Shown here piece by piece: positions 1 to 40,491 of a stretch of 44,036 bases of DNA. Made by a program: the position numbers and the translations under genes. Positions within the stretch are counted from its first letter, which is position 1. The number at the start of each line of letters is the position of its first letter. Source of the DNA: Candidatus Heimdallarchaeota archaeon LC_3 (GTDB lineage Archaea; Asgardarchaeota; Heimdallarchaeia; Hodarchaeales; LC-3); NCBI GenBank assembly GCA_001940645.1, contig MDVS01000029.1, forward strand, positions 1 to 44,036. The letters are read 5' to 3'. The notes below the pieces were generated by a model that was not told the DNA's origin, searched no databases, and saw only the letters and a program-made list of their open reading frames with translations.

Positions 1-2070
1 GAAAATGTTTCTTTAGTGGAAGCTCATCTTGCTGATTATTGGGGACTTAAAGAAAATGATGTTATTGGTGTAGGTGATAAAAATGTTTCTTTTCTAATTA
101 AGGGTACTCTAGCTTCACCTGAATATTTGTTAAATACCGGTTCTTATGAAGATATCCTTCCAAGTCCACGAAGATTTGGTGTTATTTTTGTACCTTTGAG
201 AACAGCTCAACAATTATTAGGTGTTCCTGATAAAATAAATGAAATATCAATTATAATTAAATCCGATAGTTCTTTTAAAATAAGAGAAGATATTGCAAAA
301 GAATTAAAAGAATTTTTGGAAACTGATCATGGGTTAATCCTTGGAGCACCTATAGATCGTGATTTTCAAGTATCGTACTATTTATTGAGACTTGATATTG
401 AAGAAGCAAGAGAAATAGGATATGTTTTACCAATTATTATTTTAGGTATGGCCATGGGAGGACTTTATATATTATTAAGCCGGATGGTAGTATCAGAACG
501 AAAAGATATAGCAGTTAGTCAAGCGTTAGGGTATAGTCGCCGATTTATCATAATGCAATACGTGGGGATAGCACTTGTGGTTTCTATTATTGGAACAGCA
601 ATTGGAACAATAATAGGTTTCGTTTTTGCTGGTGCTTTTATTCCTCTTTATGTAACTGCTATCGGGATTAAATTTCCCTCTCATATAGTAGTTGATTGGG
701 GAGTTATATTAATAGGGATATTATTAGGAGTCTTAACTGGTTTAATTGGTGGATATCTTCCAGTAAGAAATGCAATTCAATCTACTCCAGCAGAAAGTTT
801 AAGATTTGATCCATCATTGCATATCACAAGTGGACGGACTCCTTTACTTGAAAGAATATTAAAAAAGGTAGGAATTTCATTTAAAGTAACTGGTTTAAAG
901 TTTCCAATTAGGAATTTTTTCAGGAGCAAAAAAAGATCCTTCTCCTCTATATTAGGAGTTGTTATAGCAGTTTCTCTGATTTCTATGGGATTTGGTATGG
1001 TTGACTCTATGACTACTGCTCTAGAAACCCAGTATGAAGTTTCAGAGGATTGGGATTTGAAAGTTGATTATAGTGAAATGCCAATAAATATTTCTGATAT
1101 CATAACAACATTAAATGCTTTTGATGATGTTCAAAGCACCTATCATTTTACCTCTGGGACTACAATAACGTCTTCTAAGTCGGATATAGAAAAAACTGTA
1201 CAATTAATCGGATTAAAAAATACAGATAATTATCTAGGCCACAAATTTGTCTTTGAAGCAGGGAGTTACGATCCTGATGGAGTTGTTCTAACAGTGCCGA
1301 TCGCAGAAAAACTCAACGTTTGGGTAGGAGATAATGTTGAATTGGAAATAATTAATTTAACAGAAATTATAAGTATTTCCCCTTTAAAATTAAAATTTGA
1401 TCTTATTAACGTAACATTTGAAATTTCTGGCATAGTTGATGAATTTAATGGATTAGTTGCTTATGTTGATCTTGTAAAACTAAAAACAGTTAGTAGCTTT
1501 CCTGATGATCCAGCAAATAGTGTTTTAATCCAAGTTGAGGATCCTTCTGATGAACGACTCGAAGAAATTCGTAGTTATGTCTATGAAAATTTAGACTATA
1601 ATGTAAGGATTATTTCGACTAAAGAAGAAACAATCGGTGATTTGTTAGGTTTGTTAAATATTCTTTATTATTTAATGTATGCACTTGCAGCATTTTCTGT
1701 TCTGCTGGCTGTTGCGATGGTTTATAATACAGTTTATATAAATCTTGAAGAAAGAAAACGAGAAATGGCTACTCTTTTAACAATAGGAACCTCCAATAGA
1801 TCGATAATAACAAATGTTACAATAGAAAACATTGTAGTAACTGTGATTGGTAGCATTATTGGTATTATCTTAGGCTATCTAATGTTATTTTTCTTTATGG
1901 AAGTTGTGTTAGATGTTGAATTCTTTAGGATTAAATCATTTATTAGTGTTACAACTATGATTATGAGCTTTGTATTAACTTTGATTGGTGTTCTTGTGGC
2001 TCAATATTTCCCCTTGAGTAGGATTTTGAACCTTAATTTAGCTGAAGCAACAAAAGAGCGTGTGGTTTAA
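1..2070 (+). CDS. ABC transporter permease, MacB/FtsX type (5' end outside window)
   Basis: The reading frame is open from base 1, so the true start lies upstream; GTG at 16 is only the first possible internal start. The protein has two FtsX/MacB-like halves. Each has a large extracytoplasmic part and a C-terminal membrane block: helices near residues 135-155, 185-215 and 235-250, then near 310-330, 560-585, 610-635 and 655-680 (numbered from base 16). Conserved FtsX-type features are 'SERKDIAVSQALGYSRR' after one helix and 'EERKREMATLLTIGTSNR' in the second half. It ends 25 bases before the ATPase gene and should form the membrane subunit of one exporter or lipoprotein-type ABC complex with it. 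The substrate cannot be read from sequence. Confidence 0.85.
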   Translation, partial: ENVSLVEAHLADYWGLKENDVIGVGDKNVSFLIKGTLASPEYLLNTGSYEDILPSPRRFGVIFVPLRTAQQLLGVPDKINEISIIIKSDSSFKIREDIAKELKEFLETDHGLILGAPIDRDFQVSYYLLRLDIEEAREIGYVLPIIILGMAMGGLYILLSRMVVSERKDIAVSQALGYSRRFIIMQYVGIALVVSIIGTAIGTIIGFVFAGAFIPLYVTAIGIKFPSHIVVDWGVILIGILLGVLTGLIGGYLPVRNAIQSTPAESLRFDPSLHITSGRTPLLERILKKVGISFKVTGLKFPIRNFFRSKKRSFSSILGVVIAVSLISMGFGMVDSMTTALETQYEVSEDWDLKVDYSEMPINISDIITTLNAFDDVQSTYHFTSGTTITSSKSDIEKTVQLIGLKNTDNYLGHKFVFEAGSYDPDGVVLTVPIAEKLNVWVGDNVELEIINLTEIISISPLKLKFDLINVTFEISGIVDEFNGLVAYVDLVKLKTVSSFPDDPANSVLIQVEDPSDERLEEIRSYVYENLDYNVRIISTKEETIGDLLGLLNILYYLMYALAAFSVLLAVAMVYNTVYINLEERKREMATLLTIGTSNRSIITNVTIENIVVTVIGSIIGIILGYLMLFFFMEVVLDVEFFRIKSFISVTTMIMSFVLTLIGVLVAQYFPLSRILNLNLAEATKERVV

Positions 2071-2095
2071 TAGATGAAAGGAGATCGATGTTGAA

Positions 2096-2836
2096 ATGTC
2101 TTTAATTCACTTAGAAAATATTAAAAAAGAATATACACTAGGGGAAACTTCTACAAGTGCATTGAATGGCATAAATCTCGAGATAGATAAAGGTGAATTA
2201 GTAATCATACTTGGTCCTTCTGGAGCAGGGAAAACCACATTATTAAATGTAATTGGAGGTTTAGATGTTCCTACTTCCGGCAATGTGACATTTGGAGAAG
2301 TTCCAGTTTCCACCTTATCATCAAAATGGCTAACAATTTTTCGAAGAAAAAAAGTTGGAGTAGTTTTTCAATTTTTTAACTTGATTTCAAGGCTAACAGC
2401 CTTAGAAAATATTGAATATGCTCTGGATCTTGTAGGGGTGAAATTAAATGGAAACGTTTCTTTTAAATCGAAAGTTATAAGGCAAAAAGCGATTGAATAC
2501 TTAGATATAGTAGGATTAAAGGATCGTGTTAGTCATTTTCCTTCTCAATTAAGTGGAGGAGAACAGCAACGTGTTAGTGTAGCCCGTGCACTTGCTAAAG
2601 AACCAGAATTATTATTAGCAGATGAACCAACTGGTAATCTTGACTTTAAGATTGGTAGAAATATCTTGGAGATTATGGAAGCCATGACAGGTAAAGATAA
2701 AAACAGAACAGTCATTATTGTGACTCACAACGAAGCTATAGCGTCTCTTGGTGATAGGGTCATAAGATTAAGTGATGGGTTAATTACTGAGAATTTCACT
2801 CAAGAATTTACACCTGCAAAGGATCTTTACTGGTGA
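2096..2836 (+). CDS. ABC transporter ATP-binding protein, LolD/MacB type
   Basis: A 246-residue nucleotide-binding subunit. Visible motifs are Walker [10 protein letters not shown] (about residue 41), Q-loop 'VFQFFNLI', signature LSGGEQQR, Walker B '[12 protein letters not shown]' and the H-loop His in 'VIIVTHN'. 'ADEPTGNLD' is typical of the LolD/MacB/FtsE subfamily and fits the FtsX-type permease just upstream, so the two are very likely one operon and one complex. AAAGGAG at about 2077-2083 is a Shine-Dalgarno match, slightly far (12-13 nt) from the ATG at 2096. It ends 37 bases from a convergent MFS gene. Confidence 0.93.
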
Positions 2837-2873
2837 ATAATAATAACAAATATTTTCAGGAAATGATCTTCTT

Positions 2874-4235
2874 CTAAGCTAAATTTTTAACTAACTCCTC
2901 TTTACTTTCTGAAGAATCAACTTTGTGCTTTAAAATGGTAGTTCCACTTATTAAACCCGCTACTAAAGCCATTAGTGATAAAATGAGAATTGTATAAATA
3001 ATACCAAGGTTTTTAATTAAATATCCACCTATGGTTACAGTAAGAATATTGAAAACCATAATTAATGATGGAATAAGTGAGTAAATACTATTTCTGTTCT
3101 TATCAGGAATTAAATCAAGAAAAAATTTTGGTATAAGAATTTGTACTATCGACCCTAAGGTGTTTACCATTGAAAATACCACTATTAATAATAACCAAGA
3201 AACAATAGAAAACTTATCTCCTGCTGGCATAATTTGTAGATAAATAAAGAACATAAAGAAAAATAAAGGCATTGAAATCATTGAAAGTATTCCTAACCAC
3301 TTTTGGGTATTATAAATACGCTTAACTAAATATCCTAGAAAAAACAATGCTACGGCTCCATAAAGCCATATTATTGCCCTAGTAAAAGAAACACCAACGT
3401 CTGTTATCGCATATGATTCATACATGGGGAATAAGATAAGATTAGCCCAAATCATTAATGCCCCTTGTACTATAATCATACCAAGAATCATATATCTGAG
3501 TGTTTTATTATTCCATCCAATTCCTATCCCTTCCTTCAATAAATTCAAGAACTCTTTCTTTTCTTTTGGGGGACGTACATAATCCTTATGATCAGTTACT
3601 AGAAAGAAAACTAATATTATTGATATAAAATGCGAGGCACCTAAAACAAAAAATCCCCATTGACGCCCAAAAATATCAACTAAAAATCCCAAGCTTAAAA
3701 TTGAAATAAAAAGGTTTAATTGAAATAATACCTGAAATCTAGAGAATATAAAAGAGTAAGTTTGTCTATTTTTATCCTCTGGAACATAAATTTTATAGTT
3801 GTTATCAAGCCAAGTCATATAAGCTCCAGAATGTTGAGAGTTACCAATAGCTATTAGTATAAATGCTACTAGAAACACAAAAAATTCCTCAGCATATGAA
3901 AAAATTAAATATCCTAATCCAAAAAATAGATAAGAGGTTACTAATATCCATTTTTGTCCAATCCAATCTCCCAATGCTCCTGTTGGATAATCAAGTATTG
4001 ATTGAAATAAGAATTGGATTCCTATTAACAATCCTAGCTGTTCAATTGATAAAAATTCTAGAGAGTAGAGAACAAAAAATGTGTAAATACCTATCTCAAA
4101 GAATCCAGTAATCAGCATTAAATTTATTGATTTAAAAATAAATCTTTGCGCTTCGGGATCTAAAGATGAACTCCCCATAATAGATGAAAATAATCTTATA
4201 ATCAAAGAAAAATCAATTCCCTTTGATAAAATCAA
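2874..4235 (-). CDS. Major facilitator superfamily transporter
   Basis: A polytopic protein of about 12 hydrophobic segments, 453 residues. The MFS motif A is recognisable in the loop after helix 2: 'DYPTGALGDWIGQKW' (G-x3-D-x2-G-x-K type). The central cytoplasmic loop is charged ('DHKDYVRPPKEKKEF'). The annotated start is a TTG without a clear Shine-Dalgarno; an ATG at 4178 (residue 20, 'MGSSSLDPEAQRF') would leave a short N-terminus before helix 1 and is at least as plausible. Substrate unknown; a drug or metabolite exporter is possible. Confidence 0.85.
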   Translation of the reverse strand: MILSKGIDFSLIIRLFSSIMGSSSLDPEAQRFIFKSINLMLITGFFEIGIYTFFVLYSLEFLSIEQLGLLIGIQFLFQSILDYPTGALGDWIGQKWILVTSYLFFGLGYLIFSYAEEFFVFLVAFILIAIGNSQHSGAYMTWLDNNYKIYVPEDKNRQTYSFIFSRFQVLFQLNLFISILSLGFLVDIFGRQWGFFVLGASHFISIILVFFLVTDHKDYVRPPKEKKEFLNLLKEGIGIGWNNKTLRYMILGMIIVQGALMIWANLILFPMYESYAITDVGVSFTRAIIWLYGAVALFFLGYLVKRIYNTQKWLGILSMISMPLFFFMFFIYLQIMPAGDKFSIVSWLLLIVVFSMVNTLGSIVQILIPKFFLDLIPDKNRNSIYSLIPSLIMVFNILTVTIGGYLIKNLGIIYTILILSLMALVAGLISGTTILKHKVDSSESKEELVKNLA

Positions 4236-11235: not shown

Positions 11236-13290
11236 ATGGATTTATCAGAAATAGATATGGATGTAGAAACAACAAAAGGAGGAATGCGGTATTTAGTAAA
11301 GAGTGTGCTTGATAAAAATTCAATAGATGACTCTGAAAAGTTGGTAGACTCTTTTTCACTGTTTTATGACAATTTGTTAAAAAAATATAAAGATGAAGAT
11401 ACTACAAATCTTGCTAGGTATTACAGGCTTGTAATGGAATTTAAACCTGCATTAGCTTATGTTTTGAAATCTGGAGCAATGTTTGATTCTATATGTGATA
11501 TGGCTTTACTATTTTTTAATCCTGCACTGGATCAAATAAGAAGGCAATTAAACGAGGGCACACCTAGTAGAAGAGAAACCGGTCCAATTTTACCAGGAAG
11601 TAACAAATCTATGGATTTAATATATTACTGCTCTATCTGCGATAAAGAGCTTGAAATTCCAGATTTAAAAAAAGAAGAAATATTAGAGGCTTCTGAAGAA
11701 GTGGAGTTACCTTCTCACCATGAAAAACCATTCGAAATAAGAATTAAAAAAGTTAAAGAAGAGCTGAAATCATCTGAAAACCCTAAAAAAAATGATATTG
11801 AAATTCTCCCTGCTGAAGTGTTAATGGGTCATGTTGGATCAGTTGAATATAACCCGGAATATCTAAGACTTCTAAGCGTAGGAATTGATATTGGATCAAG
11901 TACATCTCACTTAATTTTTTCAAATCTCACATTAAAAAGGGAAATGGGTTTTTTTAATATGTCAAATAGATATATGCTCGAACATAGAGAAGTTATATAC
12001 GAAAGTGATATAATAATGACCCCTCTTCTCGACCGTAACACGATTGATGTTGACTCATTAGTAACATTTATTAAAAAAGAATATGAAAAAGCTGAAGTAG
12101 ATCGTGAAATGGTAGACTCGGGGGCTGTTATTGTAACAGGAGAAACTGCAAAGAAAAAAAATGCCCTAGAAATTGTCAATCGAATTTCATCCGAAACCGG
12201 AAAATTTGTTAGTGCTACTGCTGGGCCAAATTTCGAATCAATACTTGGAGCGATGGGTAGTGGTATAATAAAGCAATCAGAAGTATCTAAAAAAACAATA
12301 TTGAATGTTGACATAGGAGGAGGAACAAGTAATCTTGCTATTATATCAAATGGTCAAATTTTATCAACTGCTTGTATTAATGTGGGAGGAAGGTTACTAG
12401 GTATTAATGAGAATTACAAGATTTGGAGAATAGATGAACCTGTTCAAATAATTATGGATGATCTTGCTTTAACATATAAAATCGGTGATGTAATAAGCAA
12501 AGATGAAGCAGGTACAATATCAAAGTTATTAGCTGAGTCCCTTTTCGAAGTGATGCTAGGTCCAGCAAAAAATAAATTATCCAAATCATTGATGATGACT
12601 AACAACTTAGATTTTTCTGGTCCTATTGACGTTTATTCCTTTTCTGGTGGAATAGCAGAACTGATATACAAACCAGGGAAAGAATATAACGATATAGGAC
12701 ATATTTTAGCATCAGAAATTAAAAAATTAGTTGAAGAAAACGCTTTACCGATAATAGAACCTGAAAATAAAATTCGCGCTACAGTAATAGGGGCTGGAGC
12801 ATTTTCTCTTTCTATATCAGGATCTACATGTTTTGTTGATAAAGATATTAATTTACCACTTACAAACATTCCTGTGCTTCCCGTCAATGTTACTCGAGAA
12901 AATTTCAGTTCCAAAAAACTAATAGAAGAAGTTAACAGATCCTTTAATAACTTTGATATGAAAGAAGGGGAAGATTTAGTAGGGTTGTATTTTCAAAATC
13001 CAATTTACCATGCTGATAGATTGTTAGGTGAATTTGCTATAGCTATCGAAAAGGCTTTGATGAACTCAATCTCCAATAGAATACCAATTATTCTTTTATT
13101 TGAAATGGATCTCGCAAGAATGCTAGGAATAACCATTCGACGTAAGACCTCAATCCAAGATAATTTGATTTGTCTTGATGAATTATTTTTAGAATCAGGT
13201 GATTGGATTGATATAGGAGCTCCTTTGAGATCAGGGGATGCATATCCTGTGACTGTAAAAAGCCTAGTATTTAATCAAATCAATAGGTGA
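11236..13290 (+). CDS. eutA: EutA-like reactivase (ethanolamine ammonia-lyase reactivating factor) with N-terminal extension
   Basis: From about residue 205 the protein is an EutA-type actin-fold ATPase: phosphate-1 loop 'GIDIGSSTSHLIFS' (about 216), 'IYESDIIMTPL', 'VIVTGETAKKKNA', 'SATAGPNFESILGAMGSG' and phosphate-2 loop 'NVDIGGGTSNLAI' (about 357), 'VYSFSGGIAELIY', 'ATVIGAGAFSLSISGST'. EutA reactivates adenosylcobalamin-dependent ethanolamine ammonia-lyase by exchanging damaged cofactor. The first 200 residues are extra: a helical region, then C132-x2-C135 and H161-H162-E-K-P, a zinc-ribbon-like arrangement. The lyase genes (eutB/eutC) are not in this window. ATG at 11236 follows an AGGAT. 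Confidence 0.85.
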   Translation: MDLSEIDMDVETTKGGMRYLVKSVLDKNSIDDSEKLVDSFSLFYDNLLKKYKDEDTTNLARYYRLVMEFKPALAYVLKSGAMFDSICDMALLFFNPALDQIRRQLNEGTPSRRETGPILPGSNKSMDLIYYCSICDKELEIPDLKKEEILEASEEVELPSHHEKPFEIRIKKVKEELKSSENPKKNDIEILPAEVLMGHVGSVEYNPEYLRLLSVGIDIGSSTSHLIFSNLTLKREMGFFNMSNRYMLEHREVIYESDIIMTPLLDRNTIDVDSLVTFIKKEYEKAEVDREMVDSGAVIVTGETAKKKNALEIVNRISSETGKFVSATAGPNFESILGAMGSGIIKQSEVSKKTILNVDIGGGTSNLAIISNGQILSTACINVGGRLLGINENYKIWRIDEPVQIIMDDLALTYKIGDVISKDEAGTISKLLAESLFEVMLGPAKNKLSKSLMMTNNLDFSGPIDVYSFSGGIAELIYKPGKEYNDIGHILASEIKKLVEENALPIIEPENKIRATVIGAGAFSLSISGSTCFVDKDINLPLTNIPVLPVNVTRENFSSKKLIEEVNRSFNNFDMKEGEDLVGLYFQNPIYHADRLLGEFAIAIEKALMNSISNRIPIILLFEMDLARMLGITIRRKTSIQDNLICLDELFLESGDWIDIGAPLRSGDAYPVTVKSLVFNQINR

Positions 13291-28332: not shown

Positions 28333-28464
28333 AATTTTTTACAGCTCTTCGTATAAAAACAAATATTGAAAGGAAAAGTAAAAAAATTAAACCAAAAAAG
28401 AAGATTAGAGAATTAAAAATATTCTCTAGAATTTTTATTGTGGATATTAGAGAAAAGTTCTTTC

Positions 28465-28677
28465 TTATCGTTCTGAAGCTAATTTAATATCGTCAGCTTT
28501 GACGGTTTTACGACCAGAGTGTCGGGCAATTTCAACTGCGTATCGTGCAATTGATAAACCTTTTTCTGTCATAATTTCGTTAAATCTTGTTACTGCGTCT
28601 GCACTGACTCTGAAAGCACCAGCGTCTCTAATCAATTTCTCAATTTGAGAATTTGCAAATTTTACCATTCTTGCCAT
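28465..28677 (-). CDS. Archaeal histone (copy 1)
   Basis: A histone-fold DNA-packaging protein of 70 residues. Features: 'IEKLIRDAGAFRVSADAVTRFNEIM' (helix 1 to helix 2), long central helix, and C-terminal 'RKTVKADDIKLASER' (the R-x-T-x4-D pattern). The frame is open to a GTG at 28695, but AAAGGT (28684-28689) sits about 6 nt before the ATG at 28677 and gives the normal archaeal length, so I start there. It differs from copy 2 at 8 of the 76 residues compared from the GTG codons. It has the same conserved leader as copy 2. Confidence 0.93.
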   Translation of the reverse strand: MARMVKFANSQIEKLIRDAGAFRVSADAVTRFNEIMTEKGLSIARYAVEIARHSGRKTVKADDIKLASER

Positions 28678-28690
28678 TTTTATTACCTTT

Positions 28691-28848
28691 GACACGTTTT
28701 TTTTGTAGACGATTATCTGATTTTTAGGAAAGATTTTCTAGCCTACTACTCACAACTTTATTAATGGATTTATAAATATTTTGATATTCTGACATGGTTA
28801 AGTGTCTCATAGAAATTTTCATGATACTTGATTCATAGTAATAAGAAT
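28691..28848 (-). repeat. Conserved histone leader, copy 1
   Basis: The block upstream of histone copy 1 matches 29504-29663 with about 4 substitutions and 2 single-base indels. It is thus better conserved (about 96%) than the histone frame itself (19 differences in 231 bases counted by eye, about 92%). It contains a TATA-like ATATTTATAAAT (minus strand) and a 32-codon ORF. Weaker similarity continues to about 28960. Function unknown: promoter plus leader, small peptide, or recent gene conversion. Confidence 0.75.
28724..28822 (-). CDS. Possible 32-residue small ORF in histone leader, copy 1
   Basis: ATG 28822 to TAA 28724-28726. The peptide begins 'MKISMRHLTMSEYQ' and ends 'VVSSRLENLS'. Compared with the copy at 29539-29637 there are 3 base changes: two synonymous and one Lys-to-Glu. 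The two indels between the leaders fall outside the ORF. That pattern is compatible with coding, but three changes are too few to prove it. No Shine-Dalgarno is evident, and the histone TATA-like sequence lies within it, so it may be untranslated. Confidence 0.3.
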   Translation of the reverse strand: MKISMRHLTMSEYQNIYKSINKVVSSRLENLS

Positions 28849-29277
28849 ATTTGGATGATCTTCAAAAGAGACCTAATTCAAATTTAATCTTTTCTCATCT
28901 GTCTAATTATTAAACTAATTGTTGAGAGAGTTAGAATTATTTTTATAATGATTTTAGTGCCTTTTTTTATGAAAAAATAACCCTAGAGTGACAAATTGTA
29001 TTTGAAAATTTAAGTATATGACAATTAATTGATAGCAGCAATTTTGGATTTATAATTTTTAATAATTTTTATGCATATCACATATTATAATTAAGTAGAG
29101 ATAAGCTTTGATATTGTCGGTATTTTATTGAAATATTAAAGGAACACTTAGATTGTCTCTTCAATAAATTGATTTTTAAAAAAATGCCTTCAATTTAATT
29201 AAAAAGATGAGAAAACTCATTTTCTTTGAGCTTGATCTCTAGAAATATCATTAAAAAATTTATAGAAAAGTTGTATC
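28849..29277. other. Spacer between the two histone units
   Basis: About 430 AT-rich bases. Its first ~110 bases still resemble the sequence beyond the second histone leader ('CTCATCTGTCTAATTATTAAA' region and a poly-T run), so the duplicated segment once reached at least about 28960. The rest shows no ORF or structure I can support. Confidence 0.45.
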
Positions 29278-29490
29278 TTATCGTTCTGAAGCTAATTTAA
29301 CATCATCAGCTTTGACGGTTTTACGACCAGAGTGTCGGGCAATTTCAACTGCGTATCGTGCAATTGTTAAACCTTTTTCTGTCATAATGTCGTTAAATTT
29401 TGTAACAGCTTTAGCGCTGACTCGAAATGCACCAGCATCTCTAATCAATTTCTCAATTTGAGAATTTGCGAATTTTACCATTTTTACCAT
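29278..29490 (-). CDS. Archaeal histone (copy 2)
   Basis: 70-residue histone-fold protein, paralogue of the gene at 28465-28677 in the same orientation, 813 bases away. Differences fall at Lys/Thr, Ala/Val and Arg/Lys near the N-terminus, Asp33Lys, Arg37Lys, Glu40Asp, Ser48Thr and Ile70Val (GTG-based numbering). The Asp33Lys charge reversal, in the loop after helix 1, could alter DNA or dimer-dimer contacts. The same AAAGGT Shine-Dalgarno sets the ATG start at 29490. Confidence 0.93.
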   Translation of the reverse strand: MVKMVKFANSQIEKLIRDAGAFRVSAKAVTKFNDIMTEKGLTIARYAVEIARHSGRKTVKADDVKLASER

Positions 29491-29503
29491 TGTTATTACC
29501 TTT

Positions 29504-29663
29504 GACACGTTTTTTTTTGTAGACGAATTATCTGATTTTTAGGAAAGATTTTCTAGTCTACTACTCACAACTTCATTAATGGATTTATAAATATTTTGAT
29601 ATTCTGACATAGTTAAGTGTCTCATAGAAATTTTCATGATACTTGATTCATAGTAAAAAGAAT
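29504..29663 (-). repeat. Conserved histone leader, copy 2
   Basis: Second copy of the leader described at 28691-28848, in the same position relative to histone copy 2. Carries the same TATA-like sequence and the 32-codon frame (29539-29637). Two single-base insertions relative to copy 1 (one T, one A) lie between the small ORF and the histone start. Confidence 0.75.
29539..29637 (-). CDS. Possible 32-residue small ORF in histone leader, copy 2
   Basis: ATG 29637 to TAA 29539-29541. Same peptide as copy 1 except Lys-to-Glu in 'SINEVVSS'. The same caveats apply: no Shine-Dalgarno is seen, and the conservation may serve the promoter and leader rather than a peptide. Confidence 0.3.
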   Translation of the reverse strand: MKISMRHLTMSEYQNIYKSINEVVSSRLENLS

Positions 29664-30493
29664 TTTCTAATGTTATTCGTAAGAGACCTAATTCAAATTT
29701 AATCTCTTCTCATCTGTCTAATTATTAAAATAATAATTGAGAAGGTTAGAATTCCTGTTAAAAGAAATTTCATGCCTTTTTTTAACTAAAAATGGATATA
29801 GATATCAAAATCCTAATTTAACTTTTGAACATTTCAATATAACTAGCTAGCAGCAATCAAACAATTATAAAATGTGTGTTTTTTATTCCAACAAACAAAT
29901 TATGACTAAACAAAATAAAACCGAGATAATGTCGGAATTACAATTCGTTAATTGTTACATAATTTCTTAAATGTCAAATTGATAAGGAAATTTTAAAAGA
30001 TAGATAAATGTAAATCCTTGTTAATAATAAAACCAAATTTAAAAGTTATACTCATAAATTGGACCTAATTTTTTTCTATATTTTTTCTACATCATTTTTT
30101 ATATGTCGTATCAAAATATTTGATAAAATTTCTCTTTCTATATTTTTTTCTATCATATTTGTTAGTAATTTGGTGTTAGACATAATTTTTTACAATTTTT
30201 CATCAATTTCAAAATAAGAATGTTAAATAATATCTCTTATCATATCTAATCATCTAATAACCTCACTCAATTCCCTTGAAATAAGTCTTTAATGCTTCTT
30301 TTTGTCTACTCATGTTTTGTACTGATTTTTTAATTTTGGTATCCGAATTATGCCAATTTCTTTAATGAAAAACTATTTAAATGATGTTTTACATAGTATA
30401 AATTGTTAGAAAAGAAATAAGATCAAATATACTTATAATCAATTTGATGAAAATCTGAAATATTATTTCTAAAAATTTAGAGGGTAACAAAAA
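29664..30493. other. Long gene-free AT-rich region
   Basis: About 830 bases between histone copy 2 and the wHTH gene. The first ~120 bases keep weaker similarity to 28849-28960. A 35-codon minus-strand frame (30076-30183) exists but has no support. AGAGGGT at about 30479-30485 is the Shine-Dalgarno of the next gene. No RNA gene or repeat array recognised. Confidence 0.45.
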
Positions 30494-30742
30494 ATGGATG
30501 AAAATCACAAAATAAATGATTTATCAGACACAGAATTGATAATATATAATATTATCACAAAAGAACCAAAAAAAGAATTGAAACCGACAGAACTTGTTCG
30601 GATAACAAAACTTTCTCCCAGAAAAATTAGAACAGCCTTAAAAAGGCTTGAGGAAAAGGAATTAGTATCTAAAAAGCCAGATTTTATGGATTTGCGAAGT
30701 CATTTGTACTATATAGAAAATTCCCAAGAACAGACAGTTTGA
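30494..30742 (+). CDS. Small winged-helix (MarR/TrmB-like) regulator
   Basis: 82 residues, essentially one winged helix: 'LSDTELIIYNIITKEPKKELKPTELVRITKLSPRKIRTALKRLEEKELVSKKPD' (helix-turn-helix at about 33-57, then the wing, 'LRSHLYYI'). This is the pattern of archaeal MarR/TrmB-type DNA-binding proteins without an effector domain. ATG start with AGAGGGT about 9 nt upstream. The next gene's promoter, 120-150 bases downstream, carries a large inverted repeat that is a candidate target; this link is inference. Confidence 0.82.
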   Translation: MDENHKINDLSDTELIIYNIITKEPKKELKPTELVRITKLSPRKIRTALKRLEEKELVSKKPDFMDLRSHLYYIENSQEQTV

Positions 30743-34491: not shown

Positions 34492-36909
34492 TTGATTTAT
34501 TCTTTCATTTTAGGTAATATTTTTCTTTTAGGAAGTTTCCTATATTATTTGTATTGGCCGGTAAAACAAAATGTACAATCGTTTTATCCTGAAATAGGAT
34601 TAATATTATTTCTAGTATCAATTTTTATATTCCTTTATTCAATAGTCAGGAGTAAAATGAAAAAAAATGAAGTTAAGGGATTATTAGTTAGTCTTTACGT
34701 GTTTATAGTCTGGGTAATTTATCAATTTAGTCTGATTTCTCTTGATATTGTTAAAGAAATAAGAAAGGATGTTGAAATCGATTCGATTACTGGTTTTAAA
34801 TCCCCTACAGTTCATGATATTACAAGGCTTGATATTCCATTTATTGACGTACCAGAACCATTGGAAAATTTATTATTCGATTTATTTGCAATAATACCAG
34901 ATTATTACAACTACTTACTGTTACTAACCGTTTTAAGTATTATTATTAATATGAAAGCTTTACCGGAACTTAGACATTACATCAAAACAAGCTATTCTAA
35001 ATTTAGAACTTTGATTCCTCAAGAGATAAAGATTGCTTTTCTTTTAAGTTCTTTTATTTTTCTTATTGTCTATTTAACCATTTTTATACCATTTTGGTTA
35101 ATCAAATCAATTAATCCTTTCATTTTAAGTATAATTATAATATTATTAATATCTGTTGTACTCAGTTTTTATATTAGTAGATCTAATGGAAAACAAGAAG
35201 CTTTAATTTTTATTTTTAAAATTGTAACTTCTATCTTAATATCGCTATTCTTAATAATTTTATTTTATATTCTTGGAAATCTTAAAATTGACGGATTAGA
35301 GATATTAACTGATATATTTGGAGGATTAAAACTTAAAGGGTTGGATATTTTACTAAGTGCAATATCCTCTCCAGTAATCATTAATATACAATTGTTAATA
35401 ATCTTTATTTTCGCTTTAATGGCTAATTCACTCTTTTTATTATATTTAATAAAAGGAGCTGATCTTAAAATCAAACAATTAATAAATTTTTCTAATTTTT
35501 CTTTTACCATACCTTTTATTGTTGTATTTTTTATTCCTGTCCTATTTTTGGACAATGAAAGCGAATTTATCTTACCTTTATTATTAAGCTTCTTCATATC
35601 TATAGTATTTTTTCTTATTTCAATGAATAATATAATTAATAATCAATATTTCAATATCGATAAAGAAAAATTTTTCATTAAAAGAAATACTTTCTTTCTC
35701 GGATCTTTATTGATCTTAATATTCTCTATTTTAGTCAATGTAGTGAATTTGACTCTATTTTCAAGAATTTTATTATCTGAACCATATTTTTGGCGTTTAC
35801 GGGATCTGATAATTGAAACCCTATTCAGTTCCATGGTATACTTACAAATTGCATTAGGAATTACTATTGTTTACAAAATTCTTAAGTTTGCTAACTTTGC
35901 TTCAGCTGAATATGTCACATTTGGTGCGTACATAGCTATATTGATCGGAGATATTGCGACAAATGAGAGCGTCTGGGGAACAGTTACTGATTTCTTTTCT
36001 CCACCATTTAGTTGGATAATCGATTTTATTATTATAATAATTTTCTCATTTATATTTACTGCATTAATTGCTATATTCTTTGATCAAGTAATGTTTAAAC
36101 GGCTTCGAAAAAAGGAAGCATCACCAGCAACCTTGATGATATCTTCTTTTGCTTTAGGTTTAGCCCTTAGAATGGTCTTTCAACAGATTTTTTCTCCAAC
36201 TCCCTTAACAGTTAGTCCTCATTTCTTAGATTTAAGGAACACCCGGTTGCTTGATGACCAAATTTTGAGAATCCTTTTAATAATTTCAGTGCTTTTGTTC
36301 GCATTTCTCTTTCAAATACTCTTGTATAAATCTCTAACTGGAAAAAAAATGCGTGCTGTTTCTGATAATGAAGATTTAGCAATGATCTCTGGTATAAAAT
36401 CAGAGCGTGTATATTTCTTAGTTTGGATAATTGCTGCTGGATTTGCAGGTGTAGCGGGATTAATTTATACATCATATCCTATTGGTACACCCAAAATTGA
36501 TCCTGGAGTAGGATTTTTACTCCTTTTACCTGCATTTGCTGTAGTGGTGCTTGGAGGTATTGGTAGTTTTGAAGGAGTCGTATTAGCAAGTTTAATTATA
36601 GGATTTACAGAGAATATTGGAGTAATTTTTCTGACACAATTAACTGGCTTGGATATTCAATTTAATATTCCAATTATTTTCTTTGGAGAAAATTTTGAAA
36701 TTTTAAAAGACATTAGTTATACTTTGTCCCATTTATTTACACTTGATTCTTTAGAAGGGTATCTTCTTAATATTGATTCAGTTGGGTTTGTGGTAGAACC
36801 TTCCTTTTCTGCGGTGTATAAAATAGCCTTATCTTATGGCACTCTTATTATAGTTCTTTTAGTAAGACCGTATGGATTATTTGGCGAAAAACCTTCTGGA
36901 GATAGATAA
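34492..36909 (+). CDS. livH: Liv-type ABC permease LivH with a long extra N-terminal membrane domain
   Basis: 805 residues. A LivH permease of normal size is only the last ~370 residues: from about 436, 'LQIALGITIVYKILKFANFASAEYVTFGAY', 'ASPATLMISSFALGLALRM', 'KMRAVSDNEDLAMISGI' (the EAA-like coupling loop), 'AGFAGVAGLIY' and 'GGIGSFEGVVLASLIIGF'. The first ~430 residues are an additional domain of roughly ten hydrophobic helices without recognised motif. TTG start with AGGAG at 34478-34482 (9-nt spacing). The stop is directly followed by the next ATG at 36910. The last 201 bases are duplicated downstream (37477-37677). Confidence 0.88.
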   Translation: MIYSFILGNIFLLGSFLYYLYWPVKQNVQSFYPEIGLILFLVSIFIFLYSIVRSKMKKNEVKGLLVSLYVFIVWVIYQFSLISLDIVKEIRKDVEIDSITGFKSPTVHDITRLDIPFIDVPEPLENLLFDLFAIIPDYYNYLLLLTVLSIIINMKALPELRHYIKTSYSKFRTLIPQEIKIAFLLSSFIFLIVYLTIFIPFWLIKSINPFILSIIIILLISVVLSFYISRSNGKQEALIFIFKIVTSILISLFLIILFYILGNLKIDGLEILTDIFGGLKLKGLDILLSAISSPVIINIQLLIIFIFALMANSLFLLYLIKGADLKIKQLINFSNFSFTIPFIVVFFIPVLFLDNESEFILPLLLSFFISIVFFLISMNNIINNQYFNIDKEKFFIKRNTFFLGSLLILIFSILVNVVNLTLFSRILLSEPYFWRLRDLIIETLFSSMVYLQIALGITIVYKILKFANFASAEYVTFGAYIAILIGDIATNESVWGTVTDFFSPPFSWIIDFIIIIIFSFIFTALIAIFFDQVMFKRLRKKEASPATLMISSFALGLALRMVFQQIFSPTPLTVSPHFLDLRNTRLLDDQILRILLIISVLLFAFLFQILLYKSLTGKKMRAVSDNEDLAMISGIKSERVYFLVWIIAAGFAGVAGLIYTSYPIGTPKIDPGVGFLLLLPAFAVVVLGGIGSFEGVVLASLIIGFTENIGVIFLTQLTGLDIQFNIPIIFFGENFEILKDISYTLSHLFTLDSLEGYLLNIDSVGFVVEPSFSAVYKIALSYGTLIIVLLVRPYGLFGEKPSGDR

Positions 36910-37446
36910 ATGTTAAATGTTGATAAAAAATCAGAAGACGGCTTTCAAGTATTAAGAGATACTGATTTATCGTTAAAAAGAGAGAAAATCTCAGTTATTT
37001 TGATTTTATCAGTTTTTGTTATTGTGATGTGGTTAATCAGCCCAAAAATAGCAACTGAAGGTTTATTGTGGGCCATTATATATGGATTATTAGCACTTTC
37101 TTTGAATTATCAATCAGGACATTCTGGGATAACGAATTTTGGAGTTGTTGGTTTTTTTGCCATAGGTGCTTATGTAACTTCTATTTTATCCCTAATGAAT
37201 TGGCATTGGGCATTAGCATTGTTATTTGGTATGTTAATTTCTGCTCTATTCACATTTATCATTTCTATTCCAACTCTTAGACTTCGTGAAGATTATTTTG
37301 CGATTTTTACTATCACATTCGGTGAAATTATCAGATTAGTATTTCAAGCTGAAGAGTGGTTTGTTTATCCTCCTAATCCTCCAGATGAAAAATTTTATGG
37401 TGGAACAAAAGGATTAGTGGTTGGAAATGAAATAGTAAGAGACATA
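36709..37446 (+). repeat. 738-bp direct repeat, copy A (livH end and livM start)
   Basis: Every base I compared is identical to 37477-38214 (offset 768). It comprises the last 201 bases of livH and the first 537 bases of a livM reading frame. Left boundary: 36708 is A where 37476 is C; right boundary: 37447 is A where 38215 is G. The lack of any divergence means a very recent duplication or an artefact. Confidence 0.95.
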
Positions 37447-37677
37447 AGCACCTATGGCAAAAAAACCAACAACTCCGACATTAGTTATACTTTGTCCCAT
37501 TTATTTACACTTGATTCTTTAGAAGGGTATCTTCTTAATATTGATTCAGTTGGGTTTGTGGTAGAACCTTCCTTTTCTGCGGTGTATAAAATAGCCTTAT
37601 CTTATGGCACTCTTATTATAGTTCTTTTAGTAAGACCGTATGGATTATTTGGCGAAAAACCTTCTGGAGATAGATAA
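36910..37677 (+). pseudogene. Chimeric LivM-LivH ORF created by the duplication
   Basis: A 255-codon frame made of LivM residues 1-179, ten codons from the inverted insert (STYGKKTNNS), and the last 66 residues of LivH, with the LivH stop. All three parts stay in frame. It lacks most of LivM and is unlikely to work as a permease; it is best treated as the junction product of the repeat. Its start directly follows the livH stop and its stop directly precedes the intact livM start at 37678. Confidence 0.85.
37447..37476 (-). repeat. 30-bp inverted copy of livM sequence at the repeat junction
   Basis: These 30 bases are the exact reverse complement of 37141-37170 (and of its duplicate 37909-37938). 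The match extends 5 more bases to the left: ACATA at 37442-37446 equals the complement of 37171-37175. So the join at the left side used 5 bases of microhomology; the right join shows none. Confidence 0.95.
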
Positions 37678-38214
37678 ATGTTAAATGTTGATAAAAAATC
37701 AGAAGACGGCTTTCAAGTATTAAGAGATACTGATTTATCGTTAAAAAGAGAGAAAATCTCAGTTATTTTGATTTTATCAGTTTTTGTTATTGTGATGTGG
37801 TTAATCAGCCCAAAAATAGCAACTGAAGGTTTATTGTGGGCCATTATATATGGATTATTAGCACTTTCTTTGAATTATCAATCAGGACATTCTGGGATAA
37901 CGAATTTTGGAGTTGTTGGTTTTTTTGCCATAGGTGCTTATGTAACTTCTATTTTATCCCTAATGAATTGGCATTGGGCATTAGCATTGTTATTTGGTAT
38001 GTTAATTTCTGCTCTATTCACATTTATCATTTCTATTCCAACTCTTAGACTTCGTGAAGATTATTTTGCGATTTTTACTATCACATTCGGTGAAATTATC
38101 AGATTAGTATTTCAAGCTGAAGAGTGGTTTGTTTATCCTCCTAATCCTCCAGATGAAAAATTTTATGGTGGAACAAAAGGATTAGTGGTTGGAAATGAAA
38201 TAGTAAGAGACATA
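37477..38214 (+). repeat. 738-bp direct repeat, copy B
   Basis: Second, identical copy of 36709-37446. It places a second livH tail (37477-37677) directly before the intact livM-livG gene, restoring the natural livH-end/livM-start junction. Confidence 0.95.
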
Positions 38215-40491
38215 GGTTCAGGAATTTTGGTTGGAATAGCGCTATTGGTAACAGGAATAACGTTTTTTATATTACTTTCAAATTTTTTTACTAAATTTCT
38301 AAAAAGAAAAAATTTTAGCTTATTATTGCTATTTGCCAACATTTTTGTTGGTGGATTTTTTATCTTATTGACACTAGGAGTAATAGGTTCAACATCAGGA
38401 ATGTGGGATTGGACATTAAGCAGCCTGCTTCTTGATACATTTTCTAACTTCAGGTCTTTTCTATTAGATATAAGTGTACCTGAATCTTTTCTATTCAATA
38501 TTTATATACCTAATTGGTTTAACTTTAATTTAGAATTAGGACTCGCAAATATATTTTTAATAGATTCTGTTGAAGCAGATAAAATTTTATTTGTAGCTGT
38601 TTGTGTAATATCTTTAATACTGATGTACTTACTCCTAGAACGTATTTATAATTCACCTCTTGGCAGAATTAATAAGGCCATTCGTGAAGACGACTTAGCT
38701 GTGGAATCGCTAGGTATCAATGTATATAAACAAAGAGTTTTGGCAATGAGTTTTGGAACACTACCTGCAGGATTAGCTGGAGGACTATTTGCCTTCTTCT
38801 TAGGTTCAACTCATCCTCAGGGATTTTTACCAATATTAACATTTTTTGTTTGGACAATGATGGTTGTCGGTGGGTTTGCAAACAATAGAGGAGTTATTGT
38901 TGGAGCATTTGTTTATGGAGCTTCGATTCCGTTAATTGTAAATTTAAAAGATGATATTTCCGCTCTTTTCGGGTCATTAATGAAACCTTTAGCTCCAGAA
39001 GCGGCTGAAGGTCTGATGAATGACTTTGGATTAGATTTATCAACAATTTCCTTTCTGAATATAAAAATCACTTTCATTTTATCAATATTGTTACTTATTG
39101 TATTTGTAATCCTTTCGTATTTCTATGAAAGGAAAAGAAATGAGCGTTTTCTTTCAACAAAGGTTTTTGGCTTAATTTTATTAGTAACTTATCTTCCAAT
39201 TATCCTGAAAGATGTTTTGAACTTTTTAGGATTGAATATTGACATAGTAGATCTTTTTATACTAAACATTGATTATTTTGGTTATTTAATATTTTTAATT
39301 CTATTAGGATTAATTTTTGCTTTTAATTATTATGAAACGAATAAAGGTTCAATGAAATATCTTACATCAATTTTCAGCTTTCTTTTCATCTTCAGTTTCA
39401 TCCCCGTTGTATTATCCAATCTTTTTATATTACCAAAATTAGATTTCGATTTTTTTAGTAATTTGACTGGTATTACTTATGTTAGTTTTTCTGAATTCTT
39501 CATTACTCTAGACCCATTCTTGGCTAGAGATATGACTTTAGGAATTATATTAATACTATTTTTACTTTTTAGACCAGATGGCATAATAAAGGAAAGAAAA
39601 ATAAGAACCACTAGCAGCATGCAAGCATATGAGCTTTATCAGAGGAACAAAAAGAAAATTGAAATTGAAAATGACAAAAGCTCTAGAAGTATTGATTTAC
39701 TTTTTAATGAATCAACAAAAAATCTCCCTGAAAACATTTTAAAAACAGAAAGCTTAAATAAATCTTTTGGTGGAGTATCAGCATTAGATGAAGTAAGTAT
39801 TGCAGTGAAAAAAGGAGTATTATTAGGAATAATTGGGCCTAATGGTTCTGGAAAATCAACATTTTTCAATGTCGTTTCTAGCATCCTAGATCAGGATAGA
39901 GACAATGAAGGGAATGTTACGTTTCTGGATAAGAATATCACAACAAATTCTACACATGATATCGTACAAGAAGGATTAGGAAGAACATTTCAACAAGCTA
40001 GGTTATTTAAAAACATGACTGTATTGGAAAATCTTCTTGTAAGTCCCAGGAATCAAAAAGGGTCAAAATATTTATCTGCTATTCTTGGAAATTGGAAACT
40101 AGAAGAACGAGAACTTCAGCAAAAAGCATTCCAAATTTTAGAATTTCTAAATATTCTTCATATTTGGAATCATAAAACGTCAGAAATTTCTGGTGGTCAA
40201 CAGAAACTTGTTTCTTTGGGTAGATCTTTGATGGGAGAAAATAAATTAATCATGCTAGATGAACCTGTGGCTGGGGTTAATCCTACTTTAGCAAAAACAA
40301 TTTTTGAAAAAATACATTCTTTGCAACAGCAAGAAAAGCAAAACTTTGTTATTATTGAACACAATATGGACGTTCAGTTAACATATTGTGATTATTTATT
40401 TGTATTTAATAAAGGCCAAATTGTTGCTGAAGGAACACCAGAAGAAATTAAAAGTAATCGTGAGGTAATTGAAGCCTATCTAGGTACTTGA
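37678..40491 (+). CDS. livM: LivM permease fused to LivG ATPase
   Basis: 937 residues. The permease part (about 1-645) shows 'AIIYGLLALSLNYQSGHSGITNFG' (LivM core, in two parts), 'GKINKAIREDD'-type coupling loop ('GRINKAIREDDLAVESLGI') and 'GTLPAGLAGGLFAFF'. It carries extra membrane segments (about 180-300 and 465-620). After a linker the LivG ATPase (about 695-937) has Walker A GPNGSGKST (about 720), 'LGRTFQQARLF' Q-loop, signature ISGGQQK, Walker B 'LIMLDEPVAGVNP' and 'VIIEHNMD' H-loop. The livM-livG gene fusion is known in some genomes. ATG at 37678. The first 537 bases are in the direct repeat. Confidence 0.9.
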   Translation: MLNVDKKSEDGFQVLRDTDLSLKREKISVILILSVFVIVMWLISPKIATEGLLWAIIYGLLALSLNYQSGHSGITNFGVVGFFAIGAYVTSILSLMNWHWALALLFGMLISALFTFIISIPTLRLREDYFAIFTITFGEIIRLVFQAEEWFVYPPNPPDEKFYGGTKGLVVGNEIVRDIGSGILVGIALLVTGITFFILLSNFFTKFLKRKNFSLLLLFANIFVGGFFILLTLGVIGSTSGMWDWTLSSLLLDTFSNFRSFLLDISVPESFLFNIYIPNWFNFNLELGLANIFLIDSVEADKILFVAVCVISLILMYLLLERIYNSPLGRINKAIREDDLAVESLGINVYKQRVLAMSFGTLPAGLAGGLFAFFLGSTHPQGFLPILTFFVWTMMVVGGFANNRGVIVGAFVYGASIPLIVNLKDDISALFGSLMKPLAPEAAEGLMNDFGLDLSTISFLNIKITFILSILLLIVFVILSYFYERKRNERFLSTKVFGLILLVTYLPIILKDVLNFLGLNIDIVDLFILNIDYFGYLIFLILLGLIFAFNYYETNKGSMKYLTSIFSFLFIFSFIPVVLSNLFILPKLDFDFFSNLTGITYVSFSEFFITLDPFLARDMTLGIILILFLLFRPDGIIKERKIRTTSSMQAYELYQRNKKKIEIENDKSSRSIDLLFNESTKNLPENILKTESLNKSFGGVSALDEVSIAVKKGVLLGIIGPNGSGKSTFFNVVSSILDQDRDNEGNVTFLDKNITTNSTHDIVQEGLGRTFQQARLFKNMTVLENLLVSPRNQKGSKYLSAILGNWKLEERELQQKAFQILEFLNILHIWNHKTSEISGGQQKLVSLGRSLMGENKLIMLDEPVAGVNPTLAKTIFEKIHSLQQQEKQNFVIIEHNMDVQLTYCDYLFVFNKGQIVAEGTPEEIKSNREVIEAYLGT

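Follow-up and report, generated by a model that had tools for sequence, protein, structure and literature searches.

A tandem 738-bp duplication joined by a 30-bp inverted seam in the livH-livM locus of a probable Asgard archaeon

How does a transporter locus come to hold the same segment twice, with the two copies joined through a short inverted piece of that segment? The case considered here lies in a contig of 44,036 bases (the window, meaning the whole stretch of DNA that was analysed), in which the end of livH and the start of livM are repeated in tandem (Table 1). A base-by-base comparison of 36709-37446 with 37477-38214 yielded matches at 738 of 738 bases, and the limits of the duplication are sharp, since the bases outside it differ on both sides (36708 is A and 37476 is C; 37447 is A and 38215 is G). 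The 30-bp spacer between the copies, 37447-37476, is the exact reverse complement of 37141-37170, and hence also of 37909-37938. The first-pass annotation of this DNA had described both the base-identical copies and their inverted separator, and both descriptions are accurate. The same 30 bases are therefore present three times, at 37141-37170 (+), 37447-37476 (-) and 37909-37938 (+), with the middle copy inverted, and the triplicated segment is flanked by direct duplications (36709-37140 and 37171-37446, each found twice in direct order). Two novel joints result, both with homology or microhomology, as an inverted triplication (DUP-TRP/INV-DUP) requires. The topology of the locus is that of a miniature duplication/inverted triplication/duplication, an arrangement that two template switches in the inverted sense are known to generate.

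Table 1. Coordinates of the features of the duplicated locus (positions in the window)
Feature	Position	Strand	Remarks
livH-type permease gene, complete	34492..36909	+	805 aa; PF02653 permease domain at residues 440-714
Predicted DNA hairpin	36661..36707	.	ends 2 nt before the duplication start
Duplicated segment, copy 1	36709..37446	+	738 bp, livH end and livM start
Duplicated-segment start, joint 2 side	36709..36720	+	9/12 nt inverted homology with 37129-37140
Chimeric ORF	36910..37677	+	255 aa: LivM 1-179, 10 insert residues, LivH 740-805
Inverted partner of 36709-36720	37129..37140	+	flanks the insert template
Template of the inverted insert	37141..37170	+	identical second candidate at 37909-37938
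TATGT, joint 1 partner of ACATA	37171..37175	+	inverted pairing
Microhomology ACATA at joint 1	37442..37446	+	pairs with TATGT 37171-37175
30-bp inverted templated insert	37447..37476	-	third, inverted copy of 37141-37170
Duplicated segment, copy 2	37477..38214	+	738 bp
livM-livG fusion gene, complete	37678..40491	+	937 aa, permease and ABC ATPase

Including the microhomology at its edge, the inverted match reaches 35 nt exactly, and 52 nt at 90% when mismatches are allowed. The next longest exact inverted match with arms at most 3 kb apart in the whole window is 16 nt, which rules out chance similarity as the source of the insert. When the contig was searched for repeats at any distance (at least 24 nt, seed 16), the sole inverted repeat was the insert against its two templates. 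A mobile element was rejected as a candidate: the families matched by the three ORFs of the locus are those of permeases and ABC ATPases, and local sequence accounts for the whole insert. Two other candidates were also set aside, namely a structured RNA (at gathering scores, the window contains no Rfam family) and a viral copy (the exact 45-base junction pattern occurs in 0 stretches of the viral collection).

The duplicated unit takes in 67 codons from the end of livH, counting the stop, and 179 from the start of livM. The ORF created in the middle stays in frame because the added length, 738 + 30 = 768, is divisible by three and neither joint interrupts a codon; the insert contributes ten residues, STYGKKTNNS. 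Both livH and livM-livG survive intact around the chimera, and the chimera is linked to livM by the same TAA-ATG that follows livH, so that livM expression need not suffer from the duplication, judging from this arrangement. Given the shared link and the two intact genes, the event should be near neutral and readily lost through recombination. An in-frame outcome alone would arise by chance about one time in three by our estimate and is no evidence for selection. The idea that the chimera is a conserved functional protein is not supported: among the best 120 of 308 matches, none except its own covers more than 64% of the query.

Several features of the surrounding genes were recorded along the way. 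The livH-type permease (34492-36909) carries an N-terminal extension of ~430 residues without a Pfam match. The ATPase part of the fusion gave generic P-loop matches, AAA_21 and SMC_N, below their cut-offs. The LivM-LivG protein (37678-40491) has extra stretches at approximately residues 182-260 and 440-600 that are absent or variable in its relatives. Elsewhere in the window, 11236-13290 encodes a 684-aa protein with a strong match to EutA (ethanolamine utilisation protein) over residues 212-680, and 30494-30742, upstream of the transporter region, encodes an 82-aa protein with weak winged-helix matches, of which only HTH_24 (PF13412) lies above its cut-off.

We then considered which state of the locus is ancestral. 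The LivM-LivG fusion recurs in 7/7 aligned relatives, chosen among the best nine matches after removal of the window's own and one partial sequence, at 44-53% identity to the window's protein. Two of these seven are named Promethearchaeota and Hermodarchaeota, and further matches belong to Hodarchaeota and Heimdallarchaeota. These names suggest that the contig most likely comes from an Asgard archaeon, in agreement with the archaeal host first proposed. At the thresholds used, a search for the locus gave matches in 12 of the 58 genomes of the class and in 11 of the 227 of the phylum; the nearest genome (G049) shares 68% DNA identity over ~346 bases. A comparison with related genomes had been suggested at first pass, and it is informative: a single livH followed by a single livM, with no chimera between them, was found at all 12 of the Asgard loci compared (11 genomes). 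Because 12/12 related loci carry the single arrangement, the duplication is a derived state relative to these loci and, within the reach of the comparison, is confined to this contig. There are no differences between the two copies and so no sign of age, and the 12 loci compared are all distant and silent on recency.

Our results make it somewhat probable that the locus is a scar left in the archaeon's own DNA by a single episode of replication repair, and one event with several switches is the simplest reading of its architecture. A polymerase would pause close to a hairpin that lies where livH ends, and the growing 3' end would jump across to the other strand, a few hundred bases off. There, 30 bases would be copied in the inverted sense, after which the 3' end would switch back to the strand that it had left, at a point behind its departure, and resume synthesis, leaving 738 bp copied twice around a 30-bp inverted seam. 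The first-pass annotation had likewise attributed the double switch to replication-based template switching (MMBIR/FoSTeS-like). In part this holds: a double inverted template switch is the simplest account and matches a described class of events, with MMBIR/FoSTeS as a candidate mechanism; the order of the jumps is the part that fares less well.

The evidence on this order comes from the two joints. At joint 1, between copy 1 and the insert, the 5 bases ACATA (37442-37446) pair perfectly with TATGT (37171-37175), as had been reported, and outward extension with mismatches reaches 8/10; switches placed at random show exact inverted microhomology of at least 5 with a frequency of ~0.0024 (50,000 random pairs). 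Joint 2, between the insert and copy 2, has 0 bp of perfect microhomology but 9/12 with mismatches (36709-36720 against 37129-37140). The outward homology score equals 6 at each joint, and random inverted pairs score at least 6 at a frequency of 0.0044 (200,000 pairs). When both polarities are scored at both joints, the value is 6 for two of the four combinations and 0 for the others. The path originally drawn, from 37446 to 37171-37175 and from there to 36709, is well primed at joint 1 but requires a second jump, to 36709, without any pairing of the 3' end. The pairing at joint 2 sits precisely where a bottom-strand 3' end departing from 36709 would need it, and joint 1 is usable as a landing site in that polarity, with newly copied TATGT annealing to ACATA. 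Because both jumps have some pairing only in the reverse polarity, we favour an order opposite to the one first proposed. Leftward bottom-strand synthesis would depart at 36709 and pair at 9/12 positions with 37129-37140. After copying 37141-37170 and on through TATGT, it would land again at 37446 via the 5-bp ACATA/TATGT pairing and proceed through a second read-through. This order fits better, short of proof, and the sequence permits either polarity; in the favoured one, the terminal base at 36709 is mismatched, so that the first switch has 0 bp of perfect microhomology and extension from a mismatch would be needed.

The hairpin invoked for the pause is predicted next to breakpoint 36709. 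We folded the three native breakpoint contexts and the seam and compared each with shuffled sequences. The fold at the duplication start beats its shuffles (z of -2.4, with 7/200 shuffles as good), and the other three stretches were not notably more stable than theirs (z of 2.26, -0.53 and 1.04). In a scan of the single-copy livH-livM region at eight folding sizes, the predicted hairpin on the bottom strand ranked 1 at sizes 36, 48, 52, 70 and 80, 3 at sizes 40 and 60, and 6 at size 44; on the top strand its rank was 5-13 over the same sizes. The limits of the bottom-strand stem vary with the size chosen: 36667-36701 at 36-44, 36661-36707 at 48, 52 and 60, and to 36728 at 70 and 80. This adjacency was noticed post hoc and depends on the folding size, and the putative pause site deserves modest weight; moreover, the favoured polarity templates on the top strand, where the predicted hairpin is weaker. 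For the E. coli amplification junctions outside REP elements reported in PMC3161906, 10/24 lie on stems of predicted structures and 9/24 involve stem and loop.

The most serious rival is an artefact, in which an amplification or library chimera with two inverted joins was turned by the assembler, through a back-edge, into an extra 738-bp copy. An assembler can indeed expand one chimeric molecule into a full additional copy. Multiple displacement amplification (MDA) makes inverted joins by pairing of 3' ends, and joint 1 would fit this; joint 2 does so only with mismatches. In the single-cell MDA data described in PMC1855051, 406/475 chimeras (85%) were inverted, and chimeric junctions occurred approximately once per 22 kb; of the inverted joins spanning less than 10 kb, 93.5% had at least 2 complementary bases at the 3' end. 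The locus would resemble these chimeras in that nearby sequence is joined in inverted orientation via a few complementary 3' bases; it differs from those described there, in which two sequences are joined, in that its two joins restore the orientation. The base identity of the two copies is also what an artefact would produce, and no second contig with this sequence was found by protein searches with the chimeric ORF, LivM-LivG and LivF: the matches ranked next after the window's own had 47%, 42% and 75% identity, respectively (for LivM-LivG and LivF, scoring was confined to the 7994 and 7999 candidates with the most words in common). Against this, two inverted joins 30 bp apart are needed, which by our arithmetic has a probability of ~0.001 if joins are independent at one per 22 kb. 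No other inverted join was seen in the 44 kb, which speaks against a contig full of amplification chimeras, and the contig continues into complete ORFs on both sides of the duplicated unit. Wild-type yeast HiFi libraries gave 0 reads of this kind in the three runs reported in PMC13334657, so that long-read libraries do not readily generate them, a point that weighs only if the contig was assembled from long reads. On this balance we judge the artefact, originally offered as the alternative, less likely than the replication scar, with a probability that is still appreciable. If the locus is nevertheless an artefact, it is a warning to check the reads before an extra gene is annotated wherever a contig shows an exact tandem repeat whose seam is inverted and templated.

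Two successive events in the cell are quite improbable. Here, a ~732-bp tandem duplication would have formed via the direct 6-mer AGACAT, common to the ends of the duplication (36708-36713 and 37440-37445), and a local template switch at the new joint would then have inserted the inverted piece. Such a history would leave GACAT on both sides of the insert, and departure and return would be only ~5 nt apart. However, a direct match of at least 6 near random pairs of endpoints has a frequency of 0.06, which is not significant and makes AGACAT a weak candidate for the driver, and the second event would have to fall exactly at the joint. In a further model, the palindromic joints of a tandem inversion duplication are cut back by later deletions. 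That a large symmetric direct-inverted-direct triplication was trimmed in this way to 30 bp of inverted sequence gives the right final order, and the configuration was common in a Salmonella study cited in PMC3161906, but three events are required, and both of the trimmed joints would have to carry switch homology by accident, leaving this history very far-fetched.

We also asked how common such structures are. The same structure was absent from 132 loci of the Asgard phylum totalling 2,279,092 bases, drawn from three long contigs (3.16, 4.36 and 1.0 Mb, partly sampled) and smaller contigs. Exact direct repeats of at least 300 bp within 5 kb occur in two of these loci (L172 and L174), in each case within a periodic array, and both arrays belong to the same genome. 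Exact inverted arms of at least 20 nt, 30-3000 apart, likewise occur in two (25 nt in L221 and 20 nt in L235), neither with an exact direct repeat of at least 300 bp. Such arms were found in 5/135 other loci (L078, L013, L021, L028 and L034; several are simple repeats), a set of 1,180,374 bases that is mostly bacterial and from other archaea, with some Asgard search matches. Because fragmented assemblies under-represent exact repeats, the rarity of the structure is indicative only. In the open literature searched, titles and abstract openings described no archaeal case; inverted triplication was coupled with archaea in no paper, and MMBIR with an archaeon only in one general review.

Other repeats encountered in these searches are of different kinds. 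The two arrays lie on the 4.36-Mb contig of a relative, genome G087 (L172, 2048-3623, offsets 945/1890; L174, 15276-15686, offset 372), and contain exact repeats. The only other direct repeat in the search of our contig is an older, diverged tandem duplication at 28423-29826 (813-815 bp; two parts at 89% and 85%; non-coding flanks included). Inside it are tandem archaeal histone genes on the minus strand (28465-28677 and 29278-29490, 70 aa each, PF00808).

Returning to the double inverted switch in one event, the scar was correctly observed from the outset, is apparently new in its host and is ordinary in kind. The fuller description is of a miniature inverted triplication that is genuine and recent, arose in an Asgard archaeon in a single event, was primed by imperfect pairing at both joints and lies beside a predicted hairpin; it stands about evenly in the balance. 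If it is true, the break-and-switch replication of E. coli, yeast and human cells would operate in the archaeal relatives of eukaryotes too, and an in-frame chimeric membrane-protein gene would have been made in one step with both parents unbroken. A real event would also exemplify double inverted template switching at base resolution in an Asgard archaeon that is uncultured, and its joints are clean enough for polarity to be debated. It would likewise be an instance of a new fused reading frame gained from one mutation while both parent genes survive.

The locus can be compared with several known systems. In the E. coli Lac amplification described in PMC3161906, inverted triplications were present in 16/300 amplified isolates, with two junctions each and microhomology of 3-30 bp. 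These triplications, or embedded inverted duplications, share with our locus two inverted switches, two novel joints, short microhomology and direct copies flanking an inverted one; in the cases described there, the inverted duplications span 5.2-42.6 kb and arose with selection and amplification, whereas here the inverted piece is 30 bp, with no amplification and no known selection. At human PLP1, the DUP-TRP/INV-DUP structures described in PMC4352052 have the same order, with one joint formed via inverted homology; the other joint showed microhomology in 14/16 and was blunt in 2/16, and break-induced replication with switching was proposed. Unlike the duplication of 738 bp examined here, which has no long inverted repeat, the PLP1 duplications cover hundreds of kb (e.g., 458,310 and 380,947 bp) and use long inverted repeats at joint 1. 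Another described case is alike in kind, with switches between inverted arms that match imperfectly and lie inside coding sequence; there the outcome is arm homogenisation and spacer inversion, and here a 738-bp duplication as well.

The locus also shares its layout with the small inverted triplications (DUP/IN/DUP) of cancers and of yeast rad27 mutants, which are without the flap nuclease Rad27. As reported in PMC13334657 for the yeast mutants, the flanking duplications run from 7 bp to more than 10 kb, the inverted fragments from 20 bp to several kb and the junctions are ~6 bp; the inverted fragment of 30 bp in our locus is near the lower limit of this range. A plasmid-borne triplication of this sort was progressively lost from E. 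coli or yeast (PMC13334657). The median spacer in the yeast cases is 30 bp; the 276 and 432 bp that separate our insert from its two direct counterparts are larger, which counts against the replication scar. A short inverted copy with such long gaps suggests a switch between fork arms, or within a resected stretch, rather than the local folding back of a flap.
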